Virus record (IMG/VR): IMGVR_UViG_3300046004_001002 | Span: 1 to 24,212 of that record | DNA length: 24,212 bases | Strand: one strand, 5' to 3' | From: a virus | Shown: one piece after another, positions 5,611 through 19,515 of the stretch | Numbering within the stretch: the first letter of the stretch is position 1 | Layout of the letters: each line of letters opens with the position of its first letter | Position numbers and translations under genes: made by a program | The notes under the pieces: model-generated | Databases searched by the model: none | What the model saw: the letters and a program-made list of their open reading frames with translations, nothing else | Told to the model about the DNA's origin: nothing

Positions 5611-6507
5611 ATGACGTTTCAAACTTGTGCTGTCACTTGTCGCTTGATAACCCAAGATGGTTCCGCGTTAAGCGGGGTGACGGTTAGCGCCACTTTAAGC
5701 CGTACTGTCGCTGGCAATGGCTTTTTGGTTCCTACGCTGGTGTCAGCGGTTACAGACGTTGACGGGCTAGCGATACTCGACCTTTGGCCTAATGCGCTAG
5801 ATGCAAACCCTTCTTATTACCGCATCAAGATGGAAGTGACGGGGCGCAATCCAAGTTATGCGCGAGCCTTTGTGCCTGATCTGGAAACCGTCGAGTTGCA
5901 TGAGATTGCAACGATGTATGCAACAGGTGCCGCAGCACAGCCAGCAGCAACCATAGCAGGGGCGCAGGGTGAAGTGGGCGCACGCGGCGCACAAGGGGTA
6001 ATGGGTATTCAAGGGATTCAGGGGATTGAAGGCCCCATTGGTCGCGCTGGGCCAAGAGGTGTTGCTGGGCCAAGAGGCACACAGGGCGACCGAGGGATGC
6101 AGGGTGCATCAGGCCCCACTGGCCCGATGGGGCAAGTTCTTACGGTTAATGGCACTGTTGTGACTGGCCCGCAAGGTCAACAAGGCGAACGGGGCGAGAG
6201 GGGCGACACGGGCAATCAGGGCGACCAAGGCTATGAAGGCCCCAGAGGCGAGCAAGGTGAAAGAGGTATCCAAGGTATCCAAGGTATCCGAGGTCAGCAA
6301 GGGATTCAAGGACTGCAAGGGCGCGTCATTAAAGTTGGCGGCGGCGTGGTTACGGGGCCGAAGGGCGATAAGGGTGATGCTGGTGAGACGGGCGCTGATA
6401 CAGCCGCCGCACTGGAAGAAATCACTGTCCAGATGGAGTCCATTCAACAGGTGCTAGACATGATTCTTGGTGGCAGCGGTTCTGGGCCGGAGAGGGTGAT
6501 GCAATGA
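5611..6507 (+). CDS. Collagen-like fibre protein 1
   Basis: A 298-residue protein with ribosome site GAGGGA upstream. Residues 1-105 form a beta-rich N-terminal domain with TCAVTC at the start and DLWPNAL near residue 57. The same domain starts the fibres at 7325 and 12006. Residues ~118-262 are Gly-X-Y triplets (collagen-like, probably a homotrimeric triple helix) with many GIQGIQG and GERGERG units. The helix is interrupted twice by a similar non-collagen block, at residues 174-189 and 237-252. The last 35 residues form a short helix (LEEITVQMESIQQVLDMIL) that could trimerise the fibre. Collagen-like phage proteins are known as tail or head fibres. Whether this one is attached by its N-domain to tail or capsid is not visible. 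It overlaps the next gene by ATGA. Confidence 0.85.
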   Translation: MTFQTCAVTCRLITQDGSALSGVTVSATLSRTVAGNGFLVPTLVSAVTDVDGLAILDLWPNALDANPSYYRIKMEVTGRNPSYARAFVPDLETVELHEIATMYATGAAAQPAATIAGAQGEVGARGAQGVMGIQGIQGIEGPIGRAGPRGVAGPRGTQGDRGMQGASGPTGPMGQVLTVNGTVVTGPQGQQGERGERGDTGNQGDQGYEGPRGEQGERGIQGIQGIRGQQGIQGLQGRVIKVGGGVVTGPKGDKGDAGETGADTAAALEEITVQMESIQQVLDMILGGSGSGPERVMQ

Positions 6508-7324: not shown

Positions 7325-8068
7325 ATGTTGCAGACTTGTAAAGTTATTTGTATTGCTTTCGAGCCAGACGGAAGCCGTGTAGCGGGTGCGGTTTTTTCCG
7401 CTAAGTTAAATCGGTCGGTCGTCTATCAAGGGCTAGTCCTTGCTGATGAGATTGCGGCAACTGCCAACGAAGAAGGCGTTGCTACGCTGAACCTATGGCC
7501 GAACGCGCTTAGCAAGGAAAACACTTTCTACGAAGTACGCATTGATGTGGCGGGTCGCGCTCCTACGTTTGGGCGGGTTTACGTGCCTAACGTAGATACG
7601 GTTGAGCTTCACACCATTGCGGAAATTACAGGTGCCACTGGCGCTACGGGTATACAGGGCTTTCGTGGCGCAATCGGCCCAGCGGGGCCAATAGGCCCCA
7701 TCGGGCCACAAGGCTCTCGCGGTGAACTTGGTGCGGTCGGCAAGTCAGGTAGGGACGGAATAAACGGGACGGATGGTATCGACGGTCAGCAGGGCATAGA
7801 AGGCCCGATGGGGCCGCCTGGCCCACTGGGGGCTACAGGCCCACGCGGCGAAGTTACAACCCTTGACGGCGTAACTCTGACAGGGCCAATTGGCCCGAGG
7901 GGGCCTATGGGGCCGAGGGGCTACTCTGGCGACAGGGGGTTGATGGGCGCAACGGGGCCGCAAGGCGAGTCGGGGCACGATACGCAGCTTGCATTGCAGG
8001 CCATGTACACAGACCAAGGGCACCTTATGACCACTGTTACTGCGGCGCTGCGAGAAATCCTAAAGTGA
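7325..8068 (+). CDS. Collagen-like fibre protein 2
   Basis: A 247-residue paralogue of fibre 1. Residues 1-100 are the shared N-terminal domain (TCKVIC at the start, LNLWPNAL at 55-62, VYVPNVDTVELHTIAEI at its end). Residues 103-217 are Gly-X-Y triplets, richer in Pro than fibre 1 (GPIGPIGPQG, GPMGPPGPLG). One non-collagen interruption at residues 175-190 resembles the two interruptions of fibre 1. The C-terminus is a short helix (TVTAALREILK). The stop is followed within 8 nt by the small gene at 8076, repeating the fibre-plus-small-helical-protein arrangement of fibre 1. Confidence 0.85.
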   Translation: MLQTCKVICIAFEPDGSRVAGAVFSAKLNRSVVYQGLVLADEIAATANEEGVATLNLWPNALSKENTFYEVRIDVAGRAPTFGRVYVPNVDTVELHTIAEITGATGATGIQGFRGAIGPAGPIGPIGPQGSRGELGAVGKSGRDGINGTDGIDGQQGIEGPMGPPGPLGATGPRGEVTTLDGVTLTGPIGPRGPMGPRGYSGDRGLMGATGPQGESGHDTQLALQAMYTDQGHLMTTVTAALREILK

Positions 8069-8075
8069 GCATGGT

Positions 8076-8222
8076 ATGGATATAGCAAAAGCACTAACTG
8101 ACCTGCGGGATATTAAGCGGGCACTACGGCGCGTTTTGGAAATCAAGACAGGGCAGAGCCTTAAAGGGGTGCCATTCTCGAAGTACGCAGATGTGATTCG
8201 CACGCTGCAAAAGACAAACTAA
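8076..8222 (+). CDS. Short helix-motif protein (48 aa)
   Basis: A 48-residue ORF with ATG at 8076 and TAA at 8220-8222. Almost the whole protein is the motif also seen at 6504, 7142 and 11656: a helix LRDIKRALRRVLEIKTG followed by LKGVPFSKYADVIRTL. It fits the gap between fibre 2 and the next gene with no wasted space. Motifs of this kind (helix, Gly, Gly-x-Pro-Phe, Tyr-Ala-x-x-Ile) are common in phage tail proteins, often at an N-terminus. Here it stands alone. A role as fibre assembly or capping peptide is inference. Confidence 0.7.
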   Translation: MDIAKALTDLRDIKRALRRVLEIKTGQSLKGVPFSKYADVIRTLQKTN

Positions 8223-8233
8223 AAGGACTTACT

Positions 8234-9511
8234 ATGACAACCGTTAGATACTTCACAAACCTTATGCGCGGAGCGCCGAAGCTTACAAACAAAACGGGCT
8301 GCATGACGGAGCTACTGGATGCGTGCCTTGTTAATGGGTTTGATATTAACGTCGCAAGCACACTAACCTACGCCGAGGGGGTTGCTACTTTTACCGTTCC
8401 AGCGGGGCACGCCTACCAAATATACCAAGTGCTTCGGATTGAGGGTGCAACGGACGCTGCCTATAACGGGGATGTTCGGGTTATCAGCACAACGACAACG
8501 ACCTTTACCTATGCAATGAGTACCCCGACTGAATCTACCGCCGCTGGCGTGCGGATTACGGCAAAGGTAGCGCCCTTGGGGTTTAAGCTCGAATTCAGTT
8601 CCGGTGATAAGCGGGCGTACCGAAGCGAAAATGTACTAAGCAAGAAAATCTACCTGCGCGTTGATGACGGGTTAGCGCCGGGGTATAACCCCGCTTTCGC
8701 AAAGAAGGCGAAGGTCGGTATGGCACAGTCTATGTCTGACGTAAATACCGCCTCTGGCGCACAGGCACCGTTTGACCCGCTAAGCCCCAGAAAGAACTGG
8801 GAGCCAAGCGGAGAGGGTGCAGCTATCTATGACGGCTGGTACAAGTGGTACTACGCCAAGTGGCCTTACCCGCATAACTATTGGAATGACACAGGGACAA
8901 TTCAAGAATACAACCGTCCTTGGGTGCTGGTGGGCGATGACCGTGGGTTTTACTTGTTCAATGAATACGGCAATTCTAATGGGTGGGGTGGGCGTTTAGG
9001 CTACTGTTTTACCGATTTTGAGAGCTACCGACAAAACGACCCATTTAATACGCTGCTTGCAGCCACCGATCAGTTCTACCCTGCTAACCACTCTTGGGAT
9101 TGCCGTCCCGATAGGCATAACTGGTTTAACCGTTCACTGGACTATACTGGCAAGATTTTGTTGCGCGACCATACGCTGATAGGCGGCAATCAGTCGGCGG
9201 GGTTTGCACCTTTGAACACCAATAACGGGCAAACCATTAGCGGCAGGGCAACGGGCATTCCGTTTCCTAATCCAGTGGATTACTCACTCATCCTCCATCC
9301 CGTGCATCTAATGCAGGGGAATTCTAAAGGGCTGCGCGGCAAAATGCCCGGCTTGATGTGGGTGCATAACGACCAGCCGCTAGAGGATTTAGAGGTGGTT
9401 GAGAATGTTGTCGGCTATGCGGGGCGTAAGTTCTTGATGGTCAAGATGTCGTACCAAGACGAGATTAACACCTCAACAATGGCGATGGATATAACTGGCC
9501 CGTGGTGGTAG
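8234..9511 (+). CDS. Tail-associated virion protein
   Basis: A 425-residue protein with an AAGGA ribosome site before ATG 8234. The first ~110 residues (MTTVRYFTNLMRGAPKLTN, then LLDACLVNGFD, then Ig-like strands with VATFTVPAGHAYQIYQVLRI) form a start I have seen in virion proteins of phages and Mu-like prophages of proteobacteria. The middle (GVYR-type SENVLSKKIYLRVDDG, MSDVNTASG) and the Trp/Tyr/His-rich later half (WYKWYYAKWPYPHNYW, DRGFYLFNEYGN) suggest a sugar- or surface-binding beta structure. The end is DITGPWW. No hydrolase motif is evident. It forms a likely unit with the LamG protein that starts 3 nt after it. Confidence 0.65.
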   Translation: MTTVRYFTNLMRGAPKLTNKTGCMTELLDACLVNGFDINVASTLTYAEGVATFTVPAGHAYQIYQVLRIEGATDAAYNGDVRVISTTTTTFTYAMSTPTESTAAGVRITAKVAPLGFKLEFSSGDKRAYRSENVLSKKIYLRVDDGLAPGYNPAFAKKAKVGMAQSMSDVNTASGAQAPFDPLSPRKNWEPSGEGAAIYDGWYKWYYAKWPYPHNYWNDTGTIQEYNRPWVLVGDDRGFYLFNEYGNSNGWGGRLGYCFTDFESYRQNDPFNTLLAATDQFYPANHSWDCRPDRHNWFNRSLDYTGKILLRDHTLIGGNQSAGFAPLNTNNGQTISGRATGIPFPNPVDYSLILHPVHLMQGNSKGLRGKMPGLMWVHNDQPLEDLEVVENVVGYAGRKFLMVKMSYQDEINTSTMAMDITGPWW

Positions 9512-11945: not shown

Positions 11946-11995
11946 ACCTTCCCAAGAAGGGTGTATTTAACGACCATTGGCGGCTATTACGTCAT

Positions 11996-12005
11996 GGAGT
12001 TAGAA
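11996..12005 (+). promoter_or_regulatory. Ribosome binding site that sets the start of the long fibre gene
   Basis: GGAG at 11996-11999 stands 6 nt before the ATG at 12006. The earlier in-frame ATG at 11994 and GTG at 11961 have no such site. The 12006 start also makes the N-terminus line up with the other two fibres (methionine, then one or two residues, then Thr-Cys-x-Val-x-Cys). Confidence 0.7.
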
Positions 12006-14066
<2,061 letters not shown>

Positions 14067-14067
14067 T

Positions 14068-14175
14068 ATGAAACAAGAACTTTACTACGCCAAAGCTATC
14101 ACCTTTGGCTTGCTGGCTATATGGATGCTGCTAGTTGGCATATTTACCGAAGTATTTATCCGCATTTTGTTTTAA
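14068..14175 (+). CDS. 35-residue single-TM peptide
   Basis: A short ORF whose ATG lies 1 nt after the fibre stop (TGATATG) and which ends at TAA 14173-14175. It reads MKQELYYAKAITFGLLAIWM and then LLVGIFTEVFIRILF. From residue ~10 to 35 it is one hydrophobic helix with a short charged N-terminus. It opens the lysis/envelope module and is followed 8 nt later by another membrane protein. It could be a small holin-type or accessory membrane peptide; the sequence alone does not decide. Confidence 0.6.
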   Translation: MKQELYYAKAITFGLLAIWMLLVGIFTEVFIRILF

Positions 14176-14183
14176 GGCTACTT

Positions 14184-14615
14184 ATGACTGATGAAACTAA
14201 AACTAATGACCTTGACCCGCTTGACCGCAGGAATAACGCCGGTGTGCAGTGGGTACGCGATGCCTTTATTGTGCAATCGGGAAAGATTGATACCTTGTCT
14301 GAAAAGGTAGATACCTTGGCCGGCACTTTTGTCAAAGCCTTGCCGGGCGGTGATATTAAAGGCCACCACGATGCACATATTGTTAGCGACCAGCGTGAGA
14401 TTGAACGTGTTAAGCGCGACAAAGAACGTGACGCTAAGGCTGCGGAGAGTAAGAAGTTCTGGACTGGCGTTAAGGAAGATGCCATGAAAAACGCACTCAG
14501 AGCAGCGGCGCTGTTTGTGATTGGCCTGCTGATTGTTGGTAGCCAAGCCAAGTTCAAAGAACTGGTCATGGTTGCTGTTGGTGGCAATACCCCAGCCGTA
14601 GAGGTGAAGAAATGA
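14184..14615 (+). CDS. C-terminally anchored membrane protein with helical body
   Basis: A 143-residue protein starting at ATG 14184 (AAGG 6 nt upstream). An in-frame start 63 nt earlier lies inside the preceding peptide gene and is rejected. Residues 35-50 and 65-90 are charged helices of coiled-coil type (REIERVKRDKERDAK), and residues 104-120 form a transmembrane helix (ALRAAALFVIGLLIVG), leaving about 20 residues on the far side. Phages often have such tail-anchored proteins near their lysis genes, where they may act as holin partners. No spanin-like lipobox is present. The assignment to the lysis module is by position. Confidence 0.65.
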   Translation: MTDETKTNDLDPLDRRNNAGVQWVRDAFIVQSGKIDTLSEKVDTLAGTFVKALPGGDIKGHHDAHIVSDQREIERVKRDKERDAKAAESKKFWTGVKEDAMKNALRAAALFVIGLLIVGSQAKFKELVMVAVGGNTPAVEVKK

Positions 14616-15052
14616 GCACCCGCGCACACTGGTTAATCCGCATTGGCGGCTGGTTTAGCTTTGTTTGCACCATGTTTCTTGCTGTGATTGTGTACATCAC
14701 GCTAGTGCGCGAGGTGCCGATTGAAGCTACCGACAGCGTGACCAGCATTACTAAACAAAACGGCGCGAATGTGCTAACCGAGAGCCGTGGTTTTGCAGGC
14801 TCAGACAACATCGAGTTGACCATTTATAGGACTTTATACAGACAAGGCAACCTGAGCCATGCCATAGCCATTGAGGGCGGCGTAGTGGTTAACCAAGCCG
14901 AAGACTACGTTGTGCTGCGGTCAATCATTCTGCCCCCGCATATCAGCGGCCAATGGTGCAGCAAAGCGGTAGTTTACTGGCGTCCGATGCTGTCATTGCG
15001 ACAACACAGCGTGGCCTTAACTGATCTATGTTTCGAGGTGCCCCATGATTAA
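14612..15052 (+). CDS. N-terminally anchored periplasmic-type protein, unknown
   Basis: A 146-residue protein whose ATG overlaps the previous stop (ATGA), so translation is probably coupled. Residues 8-31 form one transmembrane helix (LIRIGGWFSFVCTMFLAVIVYI) with a positive N-terminus, so the remaining ~115 residues probably lie in the periplasm. That part is beta-rich (SDNIELTIYRTLYR, AEDYVVLRSIILPPH) and has two cysteines near the end. Topology resembles an inner-membrane spanin, but it lacks the usual coiled coil, and no outer-membrane lipoprotein partner is visible. I do not recognise the family. Confidence 0.65.
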   Translation: MSTRAHWLIRIGGWFSFVCTMFLAVIVYITLVREVPIEATDSVTSITKQNGANVLTESRGFAGSDNIELTIYRTLYRQGNLSHAIAIEGGVVVNQAEDYVVLRSIILPPHISGQWCSKAVVYWRPMLSLRQHSVALTDLCFEVPHD

Positions 15053-15803
15053 GTACTTGCTTGCTTTATGCCTTGTGCTACCCGTACAAGCGCAAACGGT
15101 TCGGATTGTGACTGAGGATTTTCCACCGTTTCAGACCCTGCTAAACGGCAATATTCAAGGGCCGATGTACAGCGTGATGCGCAAGCTATGCGAGGAAGCC
15201 AACCTGCAATGCAAGTTTGATTTGCTACCTTGGAAAGAAGCGTACAAGCAAGCTGTAGACGGTGACGCTGATGTGATTTTCAGCATCTTGCTTGAAGTGC
15301 CAGAGCGTAGAGAGTTCTTCTATCTTTCACCTTCTATCGTCAACACTTCTTACAGCTTCTTTGTGACCAGCCGTAACCCTTGGATGTTCTCAGGGATGCA
15401 AAGCCTCGACAACATGATTATTGGCGCTTACGGCCCGAGTGGTACGTCCATCGTGGCGCAAGAGCTAGTGAGCCAACGTGCAGTTGCTGGCTTTGAACCG
15501 ACTAGCTTAATCATTGAGCCTAGCATTGTTGAGAGTTTCCATCAATTGATTATCGGCAAGTATGGCAAGACTGGTGCGGTAGTAGTTAACAAGGATGTGG
15601 GCTTGGCGCTACTCAAGCGACATTCGATTGTTGGCCCAAAAGTCGCTGGCGACATTAAGCAAATTACCTATGGCTTCGGTGTATCAAAGAAAGCCAAGCG
15701 CAGCGATACCTACGCTCGTTTAGTGGACGCTTTGCGGCGCTTGCAACTGCGCGGCGAGATATTAGACACCCTGCGTTTTTACGGATTAAAGGCTTCGCCA
15801 TGA
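15045..15803 (+). CDS. Secreted family-3 solute-binding-like protein
   Basis: A 252-residue protein with a clear signal peptide (residues 1-17, MIKYLLALCLVLPVQA then QT), so it should be exported to the periplasm. The mature part matches extracellular solute-binding proteins of family 3 (amino-acid ABC-transporter type): RIVTEDFPPFQ at the start, then YSVMRKLCEEANLQCKFDLLPW, then DGDADVIFSILLEVPERREF with FYLSPSIV, and a later lobe ending in RLVDALRRL. Such proteins bind small ligands between two lobes and usually deliver them to a permease; no permease is encoded here. The ATG at 15045 overlaps the previous gene by 8 nt with GAGGTG upstream, and the stop overlaps the hydrolase by ATGA. It is an unusual gene for a phage. 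The ligand is unknown. Confidence 0.8.
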   Translation: MIKYLLALCLVLPVQAQTVRIVTEDFPPFQTLLNGNIQGPMYSVMRKLCEEANLQCKFDLLPWKEAYKQAVDGDADVIFSILLEVPERREFFYLSPSIVNTSYSFFVTSRNPWMFSGMQSLDNMIIGAYGPSGTSIVAQELVSQRAVAGFEPTSLIIEPSIVESFHQLIIGKYGKTGAVVVNKDVGLALLKRHSIVGPKVAGDIKQITYGFGVSKKAKRSDTYARLVDALRRLQLRGEILDTLRFYGLKASP

Positions 15804-16738
15804 TCGACCACGTAAAGATGCGAGATTTGTCCAGCATTGCTGTAGAGGTGGTGGGCAAGGGCGAGCAAGTAGTTATCTTGATGCACGGAATTGGCGGCAG
15901 TAGCGCAATGTGGCTGCCTTTCGCTCACCAGCACAAGAAGGGCTACACCTTTGTTATTCCTAATTTGCGTGGGTTTGGCAAGTCAAGCACTACCAAGTTC
16001 AGCCATCCTGATGATGTGCTGCGGGACTATGCAGATGATCTGGAAATGCTGATTGACACCTATTCGCCCGACAACAAGGTTATCTTGGTTGGCTTGTCGA
16101 TGGGTGCCTACACCTGTATGCGCTACTTTAAAGACTATGGCAGCGACAAGGTAGCGAAGTATTTAAACATTGACCAAAGCCCCAAGGCGATTAACTCCGG
16201 CTCTTGGAAGCATGGCATTGGCGGCGAGCAGCACGCGGTTTTGTTTTGCGCATTCAAGGCGCTGATGAAATCGTTTGAAACAAAAGTAGGGTGCGCTTTT
16301 GCCGCGCTTGACCCTGACTTACAGGCTGGTTACATGGCTTGCATTGGAGACTTCTTCAGTCTGGCGTTTCATCGTGACTTTGAAGTGCGACTCATTGAAA
16401 AGCTGTTTAACAGCAAGCACCCAGTGTTCTTGCAGATTGCCAAGAGCCAGCGGTCTATGCACAGCCGTGTATGGCAAAGCTACTACAACTGTCTGAAGTC
16501 TTATGTGGAGCGTGATTACGACTTCCGCAAGACTATGGCAAAGCTGGATATTCCGATGACGCTGCACATTGGGCGGCACTCAAAGATGTACCCCGCAAGA
16601 GGGCAGTATTACATGGCACACCACGCACCGAAGTGCAAGGTTGTGGAGTTTGACGAGGCTCACGGCCTTATCTACACCGCACCCGTGAAGTTTTCAATTG
16701 AATTTTCCAAGTTCTTATCCAGCGAGGCTTCACCGTGA
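15800..16738 (+). CDS. Alpha/beta hydrolase (serine esterase/lipase type)
   Basis: A 312-residue protein with the alpha/beta-hydrolase plan: oxyanion-loop HGIGG at residues 29-33, NLRGFGKSS at 55-63, nucleophile elbow GLSMG with Ser100, and a catalytic-type His288 in EAHGL. The usual acid after the seventh strand is not seen (the loop reads HIGRHSKMYP), but Asp125 in YLNIDQSPKA, after the preceding strand, is a good replacement, as in some hydrolases. No signal peptide is present. The start overlaps the solute-binding gene (ATGA) and its stop overlaps the endolysin start (GTGA), so all three are probably translated together. The substrate is unknown: a lipid, ester-linked envelope component or small ester are all possible. 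In mycobacteriophages a hydrolase next to the endolysin (LysB) acts on the outer envelope. Confidence 0.85.
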   Translation: MIDHVKMRDLSSIAVEVVGKGEQVVILMHGIGGSSAMWLPFAHQHKKGYTFVIPNLRGFGKSSTTKFSHPDDVLRDYADDLEMLIDTYSPDNKVILVGLSMGAYTCMRYFKDYGSDKVAKYLNIDQSPKAINSGSWKHGIGGEQHAVLFCAFKALMKSFETKVGCAFAALDPDLQAGYMACIGDFFSLAFHRDFEVRLIEKLFNSKHPVFLQIAKSQRSMHSRVWQSYYNCLKSYVERDYDFRKTMAKLDIPMTLHIGRHSKMYPARGQYYMAHHAPKCKVVEFDEAHGLIYTAPVKFSIEFSKFLSSEASP

Positions 16739-17292
16739 GCAGTCCGGCGCTTCTGACTCAGCAAGAACTCGATGACCTTTTAGCCGAAGTATGCGGCAAC
16801 CCCACGGAGCAAACTATGAATTTCGATCAAGCATTTTCTAAACTTATTGAACATGAGGGCGGTTTTAGCAATCACCCTGATGACAAAGGCGGCGCAACCA
16901 TGTGGGGCGTGACTGAGCAAGTTGCGCGTCAGAACGGTTACATGGGCGCTATGCGTGACCTGACTATCGACTATGCCAAAGTGATTTATCAGAAGCTTTA
17001 CTGGGACGCTTGCCGCTGCGGGGAACTGCCTGAAGAAGTGCGCTTCTCCGTGTTTGATGCCGCTGTCAATAGCGGCACAGGTCGTGCAGTCAAGTGGCTA
17101 CAGCGTGCAGTGGGCGTTGTAGATGATGGTGTTATTGGCAGCTTTACATTGGCTGCGGCTCGTGTAGCGATTCCTGCCATTACGGCCACCCGCATCAACG
17201 GACTACGTTTGCTATTCATGACGAACCAGCCTAACTGGGGTGCGTTTGGCAAGGGTTGGGCACGGCGTATTGCAAGCAACTTGGGGGCCTGA
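16735..17292 (+). CDS. Endolysin, GH108-type muramidase
   Basis: A peptidoglycan-degrading lysis enzyme of the glycoside hydrolase 108 type. The hallmark is FSKLIEHEGGFSNHPDDKGG followed by TMWGVT, with the catalytic Glu in HEGG (Glu41 when counted from the GTG at 16735), then YWDACRCGELPEEVRFSVFDAAVN. The second half (AVKWLQRAVGVVDDGVIGSFT) is the usual small peptidoglycan-binding part of this family. Two starts are plausible. GTG 16735 (185 aa) overlaps the hydrolase stop with GAGG 7 nt upstream. ATG 16816 (158 aa) has GGAG 6 nt upstream and gives the family's usual beginning just before the motif. The extra 27 residues contain LLTQQELDDLL. No signal peptide, so a holin (17637) is needed for release. 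Confidence 0.88.
   Translation: MSSPALLTQQELDDLLAEVCGNPTEQTMNFDQAFSKLIEHEGGFSNHPDDKGGATMWGVTEQVARQNGYMGAMRDLTIDYAKVIYQKLYWDACRCGELPEEVRFSVFDAAVNSGTGRAVKWLQRAVGVVDDGVIGSFTLAAARVAIPAITATRINGLRLLFMTNQPNWGAFGKGWARRIASNLGA
16806..16815 (+). promoter_or_regulatory. Internal ribosome binding site for a shorter endolysin
   Basis: GGAG at 16806-16809 followed by a 6-nt spacer and ATG 16816, in the endolysin frame. It would give a 158-residue form starting MNFDQAFSKLI, the length usual for GH108 endolysins. Confidence 0.55.
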
Positions 17293-17294
17293 TT

Positions 17295-17462
17295 GTGAAA
17301 ACGCACAAGGTTGTTTTGATCGCCCGATGCACGTATGAGATTAAAGGTAAGGACTTCGATGACGCGTTAAACAAGGCGTTAGACGAACTTACGCAGGTTC
17401 TTATTGAAGGCGAGGATGAGCCGTTAAAGCGGCTTGCTATTGATGTTGTTTTAGGAATTTAA
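17295..17462 (+). CDS. Short protein, paralogue of its downstream neighbour
   Basis: A 55-residue protein starting at GTG 17295, with a G-run (17283-17287) as ribosome site and only 2 nt after the endolysin stop. It reads MKTHKVVLIARCTYEIKGKD, then a helix (FDDALNKALDELTQVL), then a strand (EPLKRLAIDVVLGI). The strand-helix-strand layout and several matched positions align with the next gene (HTIVIDAKLEFEVEA ... SPLKAVGFNV), so the two look like a tandem duplication. Function unknown. The position between endolysin and holin suggests a lysis accessory or simply a small conserved phage protein. Confidence 0.6.
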   Translation: MKTHKVVLIARCTYEIKGKDFDDALNKALDELTQVLIEGEDEPLKRLAIDVVLGI

Positions 17463-17633
17463 ATGGACAAGCACACGATTGTGATTGACGCAAAGCTGGA
17501 GTTTGAAGTCGAGGCTAACCATGAGGTTGTGGCTACGAGTCAAGCATTGATCTGGCTTTGTGATGCGCTGACCAAAGTGGGGGAATCCCCGCTCAAGGCA
17601 GTAGGTTTTAACGTTGGTGAAAAACAGGAGTAA
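17463..17633 (+). CDS. Short protein, paralogue of its upstream neighbour
   Basis: A 56-residue ORF with ATG directly abutting the previous stop (TAA then ATG at 17463) and TAA at 17631-17633, 3 nt before the holin start. It reads MDKHTIVIDAKLEFEVEANH, then a helix (TSQALIWLCDALTKVG), then SPLKAVGFNVGEKQE. Its layout follows the gene at 17295. The 3' end carries the CAGGAG ribosome site of the holin, so its translation may help expose that site. Confidence 0.65.
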   Translation: MDKHTIVIDAKLEFEVEANHEVVATSQALIWLCDALTKVGESPLKAVGFNVGEKQE

Positions 17634-17636
17634 ATC

Positions 17637-18155
17637 ATGGACTTATCATTTTTAAAGAACTTTGCACCCTTGATCGGGACTGCTTTGGGTGGCCCTCTAG
17701 GGGCTGCTGCGGCTACGTTTGTGGCTGACAAGCTGGGTATTGAAAACAAGACCGTGGAAGCCGTCTCTGCGGCGATCTCAGGCGCCAAGTTAAGCCCTGA
17801 CCAGATTGCCGGCATTCGTGCTGCGGAGATGGAATTTCAGAAGTTTTGTGAGCAGAACAAGATTGACATTGTTCGCATGAACCACGACAACACCAAGTCT
17901 GCACGCGATATGCAGATTGCGAACAAGAGCAAAACCCCCGAGATTTTGTCATTCGTTATTACGATTGGCTTCTTTGGCATCCTGAGTTATATGCTGACCA
18001 TGCAAGCACGACCCAGTGAAGCATTGCTCATCATGCTTGGCTCTTTGGGTACTGCTTGGGCTGCTGTCTGTAATTTCTGGTTTGGCTCTACTGCTGGCTC
18101 TGCCCGTAAGACTGATCTGCTGGCTCAATCCCCCGCACTGGAAAGCCAAAAATGA
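17637..18155 (+). CDS. Holin, GTA_holin_3TM-like
   Basis: A 172-residue protein that resembles the 'holin of three TMs' family first noted in gene transfer agents. The features are the N-terminal Gly/Ala-rich segment APLIGTALGGPLGAAAATFVADKLG (residues 10-34), a charged helical middle with KLSPDQIAGIRAAEMEFQKF, then two transmembrane helices (about 102-122 and 128-148, the second ending NFWFGSTAGSARK). Holins permeabilise the inner membrane at a set time so that the endolysin reaches the wall. ATG 17637 has CAGGAG 6 nt upstream. The stop overlaps the patatin start by ATGA. Confidence 0.82.
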   Translation: MDLSFLKNFAPLIGTALGGPLGAAAATFVADKLGIENKTVEAVSAAISGAKLSPDQIAGIRAAEMEFQKFCEQNKIDIVRMNHDNTKSARDMQIANKSKTPEILSFVITIGFFGILSYMLTMQARPSEALLIMLGSLGTAWAAVCNFWFGSTAGSARKTDLLAQSPALESQK

Positions 18156-19021
18156 ACAAAGTAGGTATTGTTCTTTCTGGCGGCGGTGCTAAGGGTGCCT
18201 TTGAGGTGGGCGCTCTTGAAGTGATATTGCGCCGAATCAATATGATGGGTGATGATCTTGTCGGTGTTTGTGGTACTTCAATTGGTGCCTTTAACGCTGC
18301 GTTTGTAGCTTCAGGGCAGTTCAAGGTCTTGAAAGATGCTTGGTTGAACTTCACCCCGCAGAACTGCCCCATGACCCAGTCAGGGATGCTTGGCCCAATC
18401 GGTACGCTGTTAACTCAAGGGCACGCTTACAAAGCAAAGCCCCTGTACGACTTTCTCAAAAAGAACCTCGACATGGATGCTTACCTTGGTTCTGATGTGA
18501 AGTGCATCAATACCTTTGTGCGCTTGGGTGATGGCGAGATGTACCACGGCGGTAACTTCGGCAAAACCAAGAAAGATGCTGACCGTGCCATCAAGGAAAT
18601 CATGGCAAGCATGGCGATTGTTCCTTGGCTGGATTCGGTGAAGATGGATGGCTTGGAATATGTAGATGGAGGCTTCCGTGACACTGTACCTGTCAAAAGC
18701 CTGATCGACCATTGCCCCGACCTTGACATTATTTACATCGTCAACTGCAACCCCGAGAAGCGTAAATGGGACGATGCCCTGTCTCAAGATGGTTTCGCTG
18801 GCTTGCTCCCACGGCTCAATTTCTTCTTCAACGATATTTTGTGGGACGAAAACAACCGCAGCGATATTGAAATTGGCAAGCTGAAGTTCTGGGGTAATAG
18901 TCAGAAATTCCGTCTGATTTTCCCTGAGCAGGTCGATCTAAGCACTGGCGTTTTTGATGGTGCGCTGATACGCCAAGCAATTAACCAAGGTGGCATTGTT
19001 GCCCGACTGGAAACTATATGA
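18152..19021 (+). CDS. Patatin-like phospholipase
   Basis: A 289-residue lipid acyl hydrolase with an intact Ser-Asp dyad: the glycine-rich oxyanion loop SGGGAKGAF (residues 9-17), nucleophile elbow GTSIG with Ser43, and the acid Asp172 in YVDGG. The length is close to a minimal patatin domain, with no signal peptide or membrane anchor. Bacterial patatins cleave acyl chains from phospholipids (known). Here the gene is coupled to the holin by ATGA and to the secreted nuclease by another ATGA, so a role during lysis, on membranes opened by the holin, is plausible. Other options are modification of the host membrane earlier in infection. Catalytic completeness makes decay unlikely. Confidence 0.9.
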   Translation: MNKVGIVLSGGGAKGAFEVGALEVILRRINMMGDDLVGVCGTSIGAFNAAFVASGQFKVLKDAWLNFTPQNCPMTQSGMLGPIGTLLTQGHAYKAKPLYDFLKKNLDMDAYLGSDVKCINTFVRLGDGEMYHGGNFGKTKKDADRAIKEIMASMAIVPWLDSVKMDGLEYVDGGFRDTVPVKSLIDHCPDLDIIYIVNCNPEKRKWDDALSQDGFAGLLPRLNFFFNDILWDENNRSDIEIGKLKFWGNSQKFRLIFPEQVDLSTGVFDGALIRQAINQGGIVARLETI

Positions 19022-19515
19022 ACAAAAAATCCCGTTTTTTGTACATGAGCCTTGTGTCATGTACAGTTTTTATGAGTTTTCAGTGCGCAGCCGCCAAGAT
19101 CACGGGGACGGTTACTGCGGTAACAGACGGGGACACCCTGAAGCTCACCGACGCAAAGAAGGTGGTTCACAAGATTCGTCTTGCGAGCATTGATGCGCCA
19201 GAGATTAAGCAGTTCTACGGCTACTCGTCAAAGAACTCTCTGTCGCAACTGACGCTCAACAAAAAGGTTAGCGCCCAGTGCACCACAGTAGATATGTACA
19301 AGCGCCAAATCTGCACTGTCTTTGCAGGCAAAGTAGATGTCAATTCGCTACAGGTAGAGCGCGGCATGGCTTGGGCTTATCTGCAATATGCCCCTAGAGG
19401 CACCCCGCTAAAGGGCATCCAAGACAAAGCGCGTGAATCACAGATCGGACTTTGGTCTGAGCTTAGCCCAGAACCCCCTTGGGATTTTCGACGTAACGTA
19501 AAGGATGCACCATGA
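19018..19515 (+). CDS. Secreted Staphylococcus-nuclease-like (SNase) protein
   Basis: A 165-residue protein with an N-terminal signal peptide (residues ~1-26, with a hydrophobic core and CAAA before KITG), so it is probably periplasmic. The mature part carries the SNase core: VTDGDTLKL (Asp37, Asp39), IRLASIDAPE (Arg54, Asp59, Glu62) and DMYKRQ (Asp92, Tyr94, Arg96), which correspond to the metal- and phosphate-binding residues of the Staphylococcus enzyme, plus the end motif GLWSE. These enzymes cut DNA and RNA with calcium (known). ATG overlaps the patatin stop (ATGA). Possible roles are cutting incoming phage DNA in the periplasm or host nucleic acid at lysis. Between this gene and the next are 66 nt with an 8-T run (19554-19561) but no clear stem. 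Confidence 0.88.
   Translation: MNKKSRFLYMSLVSCTVFMSFQCAAAKITGTVTAVTDGDTLKLTDAKKVVHKIRLASIDAPEIKQFYGYSSKNSLSQLTLNKKVSAQCTTVDMYKRQICTVFAGKVDVNSLQVERGMAWAYLQYAPRGTPLKGIQDKARESQIGLWSELSPEPPWDFRRNVKDAP

Follow-up and report, generated by a model that had tools for sequence, protein, structure and literature searches.

How does a phage complete lysis of a Gram-negative host when no spanin genes are visible? This question is raised by a 24,212-base virus fragment (the window in the following, i.e., the whole stretch of DNA analysed), whose phage encodes an N4-gp56 family capsid protein and has a Gram-negative host, likely a free-living betaproteobacterium. In a survey of 677 phages, no spanin was found in 91 (about 13%; PMC6139136), and the way in which the outer membrane is breached by such phages has been called an open question (PMC12819732). 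For the window, the original prediction proposed that two lipolytic-type enzymes encoded in the lysis module, an alpha/beta hydrolase (ABH) and a patatin-like phospholipase, replace spanins by disrupting the outer membrane, in analogy to mycobacteriophage LysB. On balance, we consider it probable that this is a lysis module without Rz/Rz1-type spanins in which ABH and patatin are both accessory and do not form a conserved substitute for spanins, with the patatin being the more plausibly lysis-tied of the two.

Content of the module and its relatives

The features of the region are listed in Table 1. The module is placed between tail genes. Endolysin, holin-like gene, ABH and patatin are located as predicted, while the genes starting at 14184, 14612, 15045 and 19018 had gone unmentioned. 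The former three (the triad in the following) would form the conserved core of the module together with the GH108 endolysin, the GTA-related holin-like protein and the secreted nuclease.

Table 1. Features of the lysis region and the tail gene used for comparison (window coordinates)
Feature	Position	Strand	Evidence and remarks
Single-TM protein, 35 aa	14068..14175	+	in relatives with GH108 version of module
Triad gene 1; coiled-coil-type long helix, C-terminal TM	14184..14615	+	36-61% identical in relatives aligned
Triad gene 2; 146 aa, N-terminal TM anchor and beta-sandwich	14612..15052	+	10 viral contigs with 59-90% identity
Triad gene 3; signal-peptide SBP_bac_3 protein (SBP)	15045..15803	+	PF00497 E 1.6e-11
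ABH; accessory gene between SBP and endolysin	15800..16738	+	PF00561 E 1.6e-19
GH108 endolysin	16735..17292	+	PF05838 E 6.8e-28; phrog_315 endolysin 5.7e-49
Small acidic ORF	17256..17462	+	79% identical L012, 42% L147; relatives start near 17301
Small acidic ORF, 56 aa, just 5' of holin	17463..17633	+	91% L002, 68% L012, 73% C121
Holin-like membrane protein	17637..18155	+	phrog_1544 E 3.4e-17; TM 103-121, 129-147
Patatin-like phospholipase	18152..19021	+	PF01734 E 2.6e-23; no signal peptide or TM seen
Signal-peptide staphylococcal-nuclease homolog	19018..19515	+	PF00565 E 9.3e-17
Tail protein (query for the sister-phage search)	21015..22619	+	26 viral loci at 46-74% identity

A DNA-level search of the phage collection with the window gave no match. 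The nearest relative is L002, whose capsid protein is 96% identical to that of the window. In total, 12 contigs carry the window's module, i.e., the window itself, G001 (31 kb), G018, G020, G021, G022, G023, four smaller ones and C121. The latter belongs to an Oxalobacteraceae MAG, is 63,055 bp long and carries a terminal repeat of 119 bp. Sequence repeats near the ends are also found in G018, G020 and G023. All GH108-group relatives belong to one clade, such that counts among them are not independent. The 35-aa protein at 14068 shows tblastn identities of 69% (L002), 59% (L154), 43% (L156) and 47% (C121), and the nuclease at 19018 is kept in L002, L012, L156, C121 and G023. In those GH108-type relatives that were looked at, this secreted SNase homolog (19018-19515) remains a neighbour of the holin. 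Aside from the module, three tail-region proteins of the window carry long collagen-like Gly-X-Y repeats (5611-6507, 7325-8068, 11961-14066).

The reported GTGA (ABH-endolysin) and ATGA (holin-patatin) couplings exist. Still, four-base stop/start overlaps occur at most module junctions (14612, 15800, 16735, 18152, 19018), and the corresponding start is overlapped by the SBP gene in both L002 and L154. The couplings are therefore a general feature here and not specific to the hydrolases.

The GH108 endolysin is confirmed by its PF05838 profile match (97.5 bits vs. a cut-off of 21.2). The L002 endolysin start corresponds to ATG 16816 of the window, which has a GGAG ribosome site, and the 27 residues ahead of this ATG are a separate 51-aa ORF in L002. 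We also observed a conserved leader (LTxxELxxLLAE) ahead of the endolysin, covering 16735-16815 in the window and present in L154, L156, L157 and L002. It is fused to the endolysin in most relatives besides L002 and is possibly regulatory.

The GTA-type holin is only partly recovered as such: a phrog_1544 membrane protein is in place, but it has no direct match to Pfam GTA_holin_3TM (PF11351). The holin of an M15-endolysin group of relatives matches PF11351 (1.1e-8), and the C121 holin links this group with the window's. Homologs from phrog_1544 lie at most 1 kb from a GH108 or M15 endolysin gene in 50/84 other loci, Rhodoferax phage P26218 among them, and it is from this association with endolysin genes that we infer holin function for the 17637 protein. 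PF11351 cassettes and P26218 resemble the module in having a related holin by a GH108/M15 endolysin and no Rz/Rz1 seen nearby. They differ in that the window's holin is below Pfam detection and in that P26218 has neither triad nor lipase.

Search for spanins

Spanins were searched by pairing ORFs that encode an N-terminal TM helix with out-of-frame lipobox ORFs. Among the controls, the pairs of lambda, T7 and P22 are recovered, while LysB/LysC of P2 is missed. For comparison, 25 sister loci were found by means of the tail protein, 20 of which are usable, as they extend 1.2 kb or more in the upstream direction. Of these, 17/20 carry an Rz/Rz1 pair immediately before the shared tail gene, with the proline-rich Rz1 embedded inside the Rz gene. 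Embedded pairs just 5' of this gene are seen in L015-L038 and at L057:18703-19203; in L057, a 204-aa ORF that looks chitinase-like by eye (a lysin) stands between the pair and the tail gene.

In the window, i.e., a 24-kb fragment, neither an Rz/Rz1-like pair nor a credible lipoprotein was found. The pair is present in 0/12 contigs with the window's module, which include the terminally repeated 63-kb C121, the completeness of most being uncertified. Permissive lipobox scans, covering both strands of C121, gave no credible candidate. The same holds for unimolecular spanins (lipobox and C-terminal TM in one protein), for which no credible lipobox ORF was found in the window or the triad genomes. 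PF03245 is matched only below the cut-off in the triad records searched. One such match (G016) was considered as a spanin and rejected, being below the cut-off and inside a 427-aa frame. We also considered disruptins, i.e., short cationic amphipathic peptides: the two small module ORFs screened (17256, 17463) are both acidic.

The statement that no spanins are visible has therefore held up, since no pair is found in the window or its complete and near-complete relatives while the sister phages are positive. The search of fuller genomes that had been suggested now covers the 63-kb C121 and yields nothing credible. As far as the scan can detect spanins, their absence thus extends to the scale of genomes. 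Compared to Rz/Rz1 of lambda and the 17 sister phages, the same lysis step would be served, but triad phages have neither a lipoprotein nor an embedded pair.

In 84 other phrog_1544 holin-family loci, neither an Rz/Rz1 pair nor a credible lipoprotein is found nearby. We thus rejected the idea that only the triad goes along with a lack of spanins, as holin-family loci without the triad are also without Rz/Rz1. Based on the phrog_1544 loci L067-L146, a lack of spanins may be general for this type of holin.

The alpha/beta hydrolase and the patatin

The ABH active site had been taken to be intact. Ser100 and His288 are indeed present, but the position of the usual catalytic Asp after strand 7 is a Ser (IGRHSKMYP), as it is in the corresponding segment of a relative (IGRNSTLYP). 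Asp125 may act as the catalytic acid. A TM helix is predicted in neither ABH nor patatin. The ABH matches in Pfam, PHROGs and PDB are general alpha/beta hydrolases only, with no similarity to LysB/cutinase-type esterases, and a single-protein scan of viral contigs with ABH gave no match. Of the LysB analogy, there remains that a lipolytic enzyme gene adjoins the endolysin gene. ABH itself resembles haloperoxidase/strigolactone-esterase type hydrolases and has no LysB match, and the window phage's host would not be expected to have a mycolic outer membrane.

The ABH position varies among relatives. L002 lacks ABH; its SBP gene overlaps (GTGA) the 51-aa ORF, and the latter has an overlap with the start of the endolysin gene. 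L154 has a direct overlap between the stop of SBP and an endolysin leader, and in L147 a Dam methylase (7832-8272) follows SBP in the ABH slot, with the same ASP-stop ending at the junction as ABH. Given its absence from L002 and Dam in the same slot of L147, ABH looks like cargo in an apparently exchangeable SBP-endolysin slot. Because the slot is exchangeable, a lipase gene beside the endolysin is weak evidence of a lysis role.

For the patatin, the predicted Ser43 and Asp172 were confirmed, i.e., the motifs GGGAKG (oxyanion), GTSIG (Ser43) and DGG (Asp172) are invariant in all three aligned phages. L012 has its patatin at the same location as the window, with 94% identity. The one of L002 (47% identical) lies between endolysin and holin, i.e., on the opposite side of the holin. 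Patatin is thus part of the lysis module in three phages and two positions, all from one phage clade. The gene-order comparison that had been suggested therefore gives a mixed picture: the patatin recurs in three lysis modules, but on opposite sides of the holin, and ABH is not conserved. Related phages with the enzymes in other positions, which had been named as speaking against the original prediction, are thus in part observed. Among distant phages, patatins are encoded beside an M15 endolysin (L065) and beside a weak NlpC/P60 match (L064); others have no lysis link (L062, RM378). No homolog of ABH or patatin is found in the 84 holin-family loci or the 25 sister loci.

For phage WO of Wolbachia, a lytic cassette has been proposed in which a patatin adjoins a holin-like gene. 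A relative has the homolog of this holin-like gene next to a gene for a GH108 lysozyme (PMC9203015). Window, L012 and L002 resemble this cassette in that a patatin is located by a holin-like gene and a tail module, with no spanins (PMC9203015; PMC3173496). They are unlike it in that the window's module has a GH108 endolysin, the triad and the nuclease, while the WO cassette has no canonical endolysin but an ankyrin protein; Pfam matches of the window's module include no ankyrin. The hosts also differ, i.e., Wolbachia vs. a likely free-living betaproteobacterium.

Taken together, its recurrence in modules, the endolysin neighbours elsewhere and the phage WO proposal make an auxiliary lysis role of the patatin plausible. 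It is best read as an auxiliary, putatively active phospholipase released with the endolysin, and its tie to lysis is more plausibly real than that of ABH. Once the holin opens, the cytosolic patatin would escape together with the endolysin and could hydrolyse membrane phospholipids, such that the outer membrane would be weakened after cleavage of the wall, in line with the phage WO proposal. Here, we infer enzymatic activity and timing as well as any action that patatin or triad may have on the outer membrane. A CBASS-type defence effector was rejected for the patatin, given only weak matches to CBASS phospholipase effectors.

Furthermore, a DUF676-type esterase (LIP2) is encoded 5' of the triad in L157:8660-9463, L154:8640-9461 and L156:5489-6289. 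As a third lysis lipase, it would have provided every GH108-type triad phage with some lipase. We dropped this idea and treat LIP2 as a probable tail enzyme, since its first 63 residues are common with an ORF among tail-fibre-like genes (G018:3408-3935). The latter ORF has a chaperone-like C-terminus, which suggests a modular tail-fibre enzyme.

The triad and competing explanations

The triad is more conserved than the two lipase-like genes. Its order is kept in ten other viral contigs (L147-L154, L156, L157) and in the MAG contig C121. In phages of the L149-L153 type, the triad is followed by the PF11351-matching holin and an M15 endolysin, and their structural proteins are unmatched to the window. 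The same triad with different holins, endolysins and structural genes indicates that it travels between lineages with lysis genes. The 14184 model consists of two long helices (12-52, 58-131; pTM 0.31), its TM being assigned by hydropathy. The 14612 model is a TM helix with a beta-sandwich (pLDDT 76.8), presumably periplasmic. This protein is 71% identical in C121, has the invariant cysteines 116 and 140 and matches no Pfam or NCBIfam family. Its fold search of solved structures gave only weak ApaG/RhoGDI-like beta-sandwich matches; beyond these, one uncharacterised phage relative was matched. The SBP protein is 72-87% identical among triad phages, while its matches in other genomes of the MAG's family reach only 20-34% identity, and it is therefore no recent host gene.

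Joint replacement of spanins by both lipolytic enzymes is the least probable of the explanations we weighed. For it speak that both genes are in the lysis module, that the patatin motifs are intact and that no spanin was found, along with the LysB analogy and the phage WO proposal. However, L002 as the nearest relative has no ABH and L147 has Dam in the ABH slot, the triad phages G020, G021 and G022 have neither lipase by homology search and no Rz/Rz1 either, and the 84 other loci with this holin lack both enzymes as well as Rz/Rz1. Since relatives with neither lipase are also without Rz/Rz1, the spanin-less state is independent of the lipases, and the central claim of the original prediction is not supported. 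Spanins that are present but went unrecognised, due to an atypical lipobox, separated genes or a location outside the fragment, are hardly more probable. The scan does miss P2-type pairs, and 17256 and 17463 are uncharacterised small proteins, but the permissive both-strand scan of C121 and the below-cut-off PF03245 matches in the triad records searched argue against them.

More serious, though with a less than even chance, is that both hydrolases are ordinary moron genes (metabolism, anti-defence, surface change) unconnected to lysis. This would fit the exchange of Dam and ABH in one slot, the presumed tail enzyme LIP2 near the triad (L154, L156, L157) and the weak patatin similarity to CBASS phospholipase effectors, but not a patatin that stays inside the module in two positions in three phages and neighbours endolysin-type genes in two distant ones. 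With too few related phages, selection for lysis cannot be separated from cargo accumulation. The triad may have a role in lysis, superinfection exclusion or another process. That it acts across the periplasm as an outer-membrane-disrupting or envelope-sensing device in place of spanins is unlikely: it is kept together beside different holins and endolysins in all triad contigs, triad-free sister phages carry Rz/Rz1, and a periplasmic location or domain is predicted for two triad proteins. On the other hand, most holin-family phages have no triad and yet no Rz/Rz1, no outer-membrane anchor is seen, and superinfection exclusion suits the triad's anatomy equally well. We are equally doubtful that the triad represents a new kind of envelope module by which spanin-less phages complete lysis, with the patatin as an optional helper.

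Our preferred reading remains the spanin-less module with accessory hydrolases. It comes with a clean contrast between two sets of sister phages that have related tails but of which only one carries Rz/Rz1, by which candidate substitutes become testable via standard lambda complementation.
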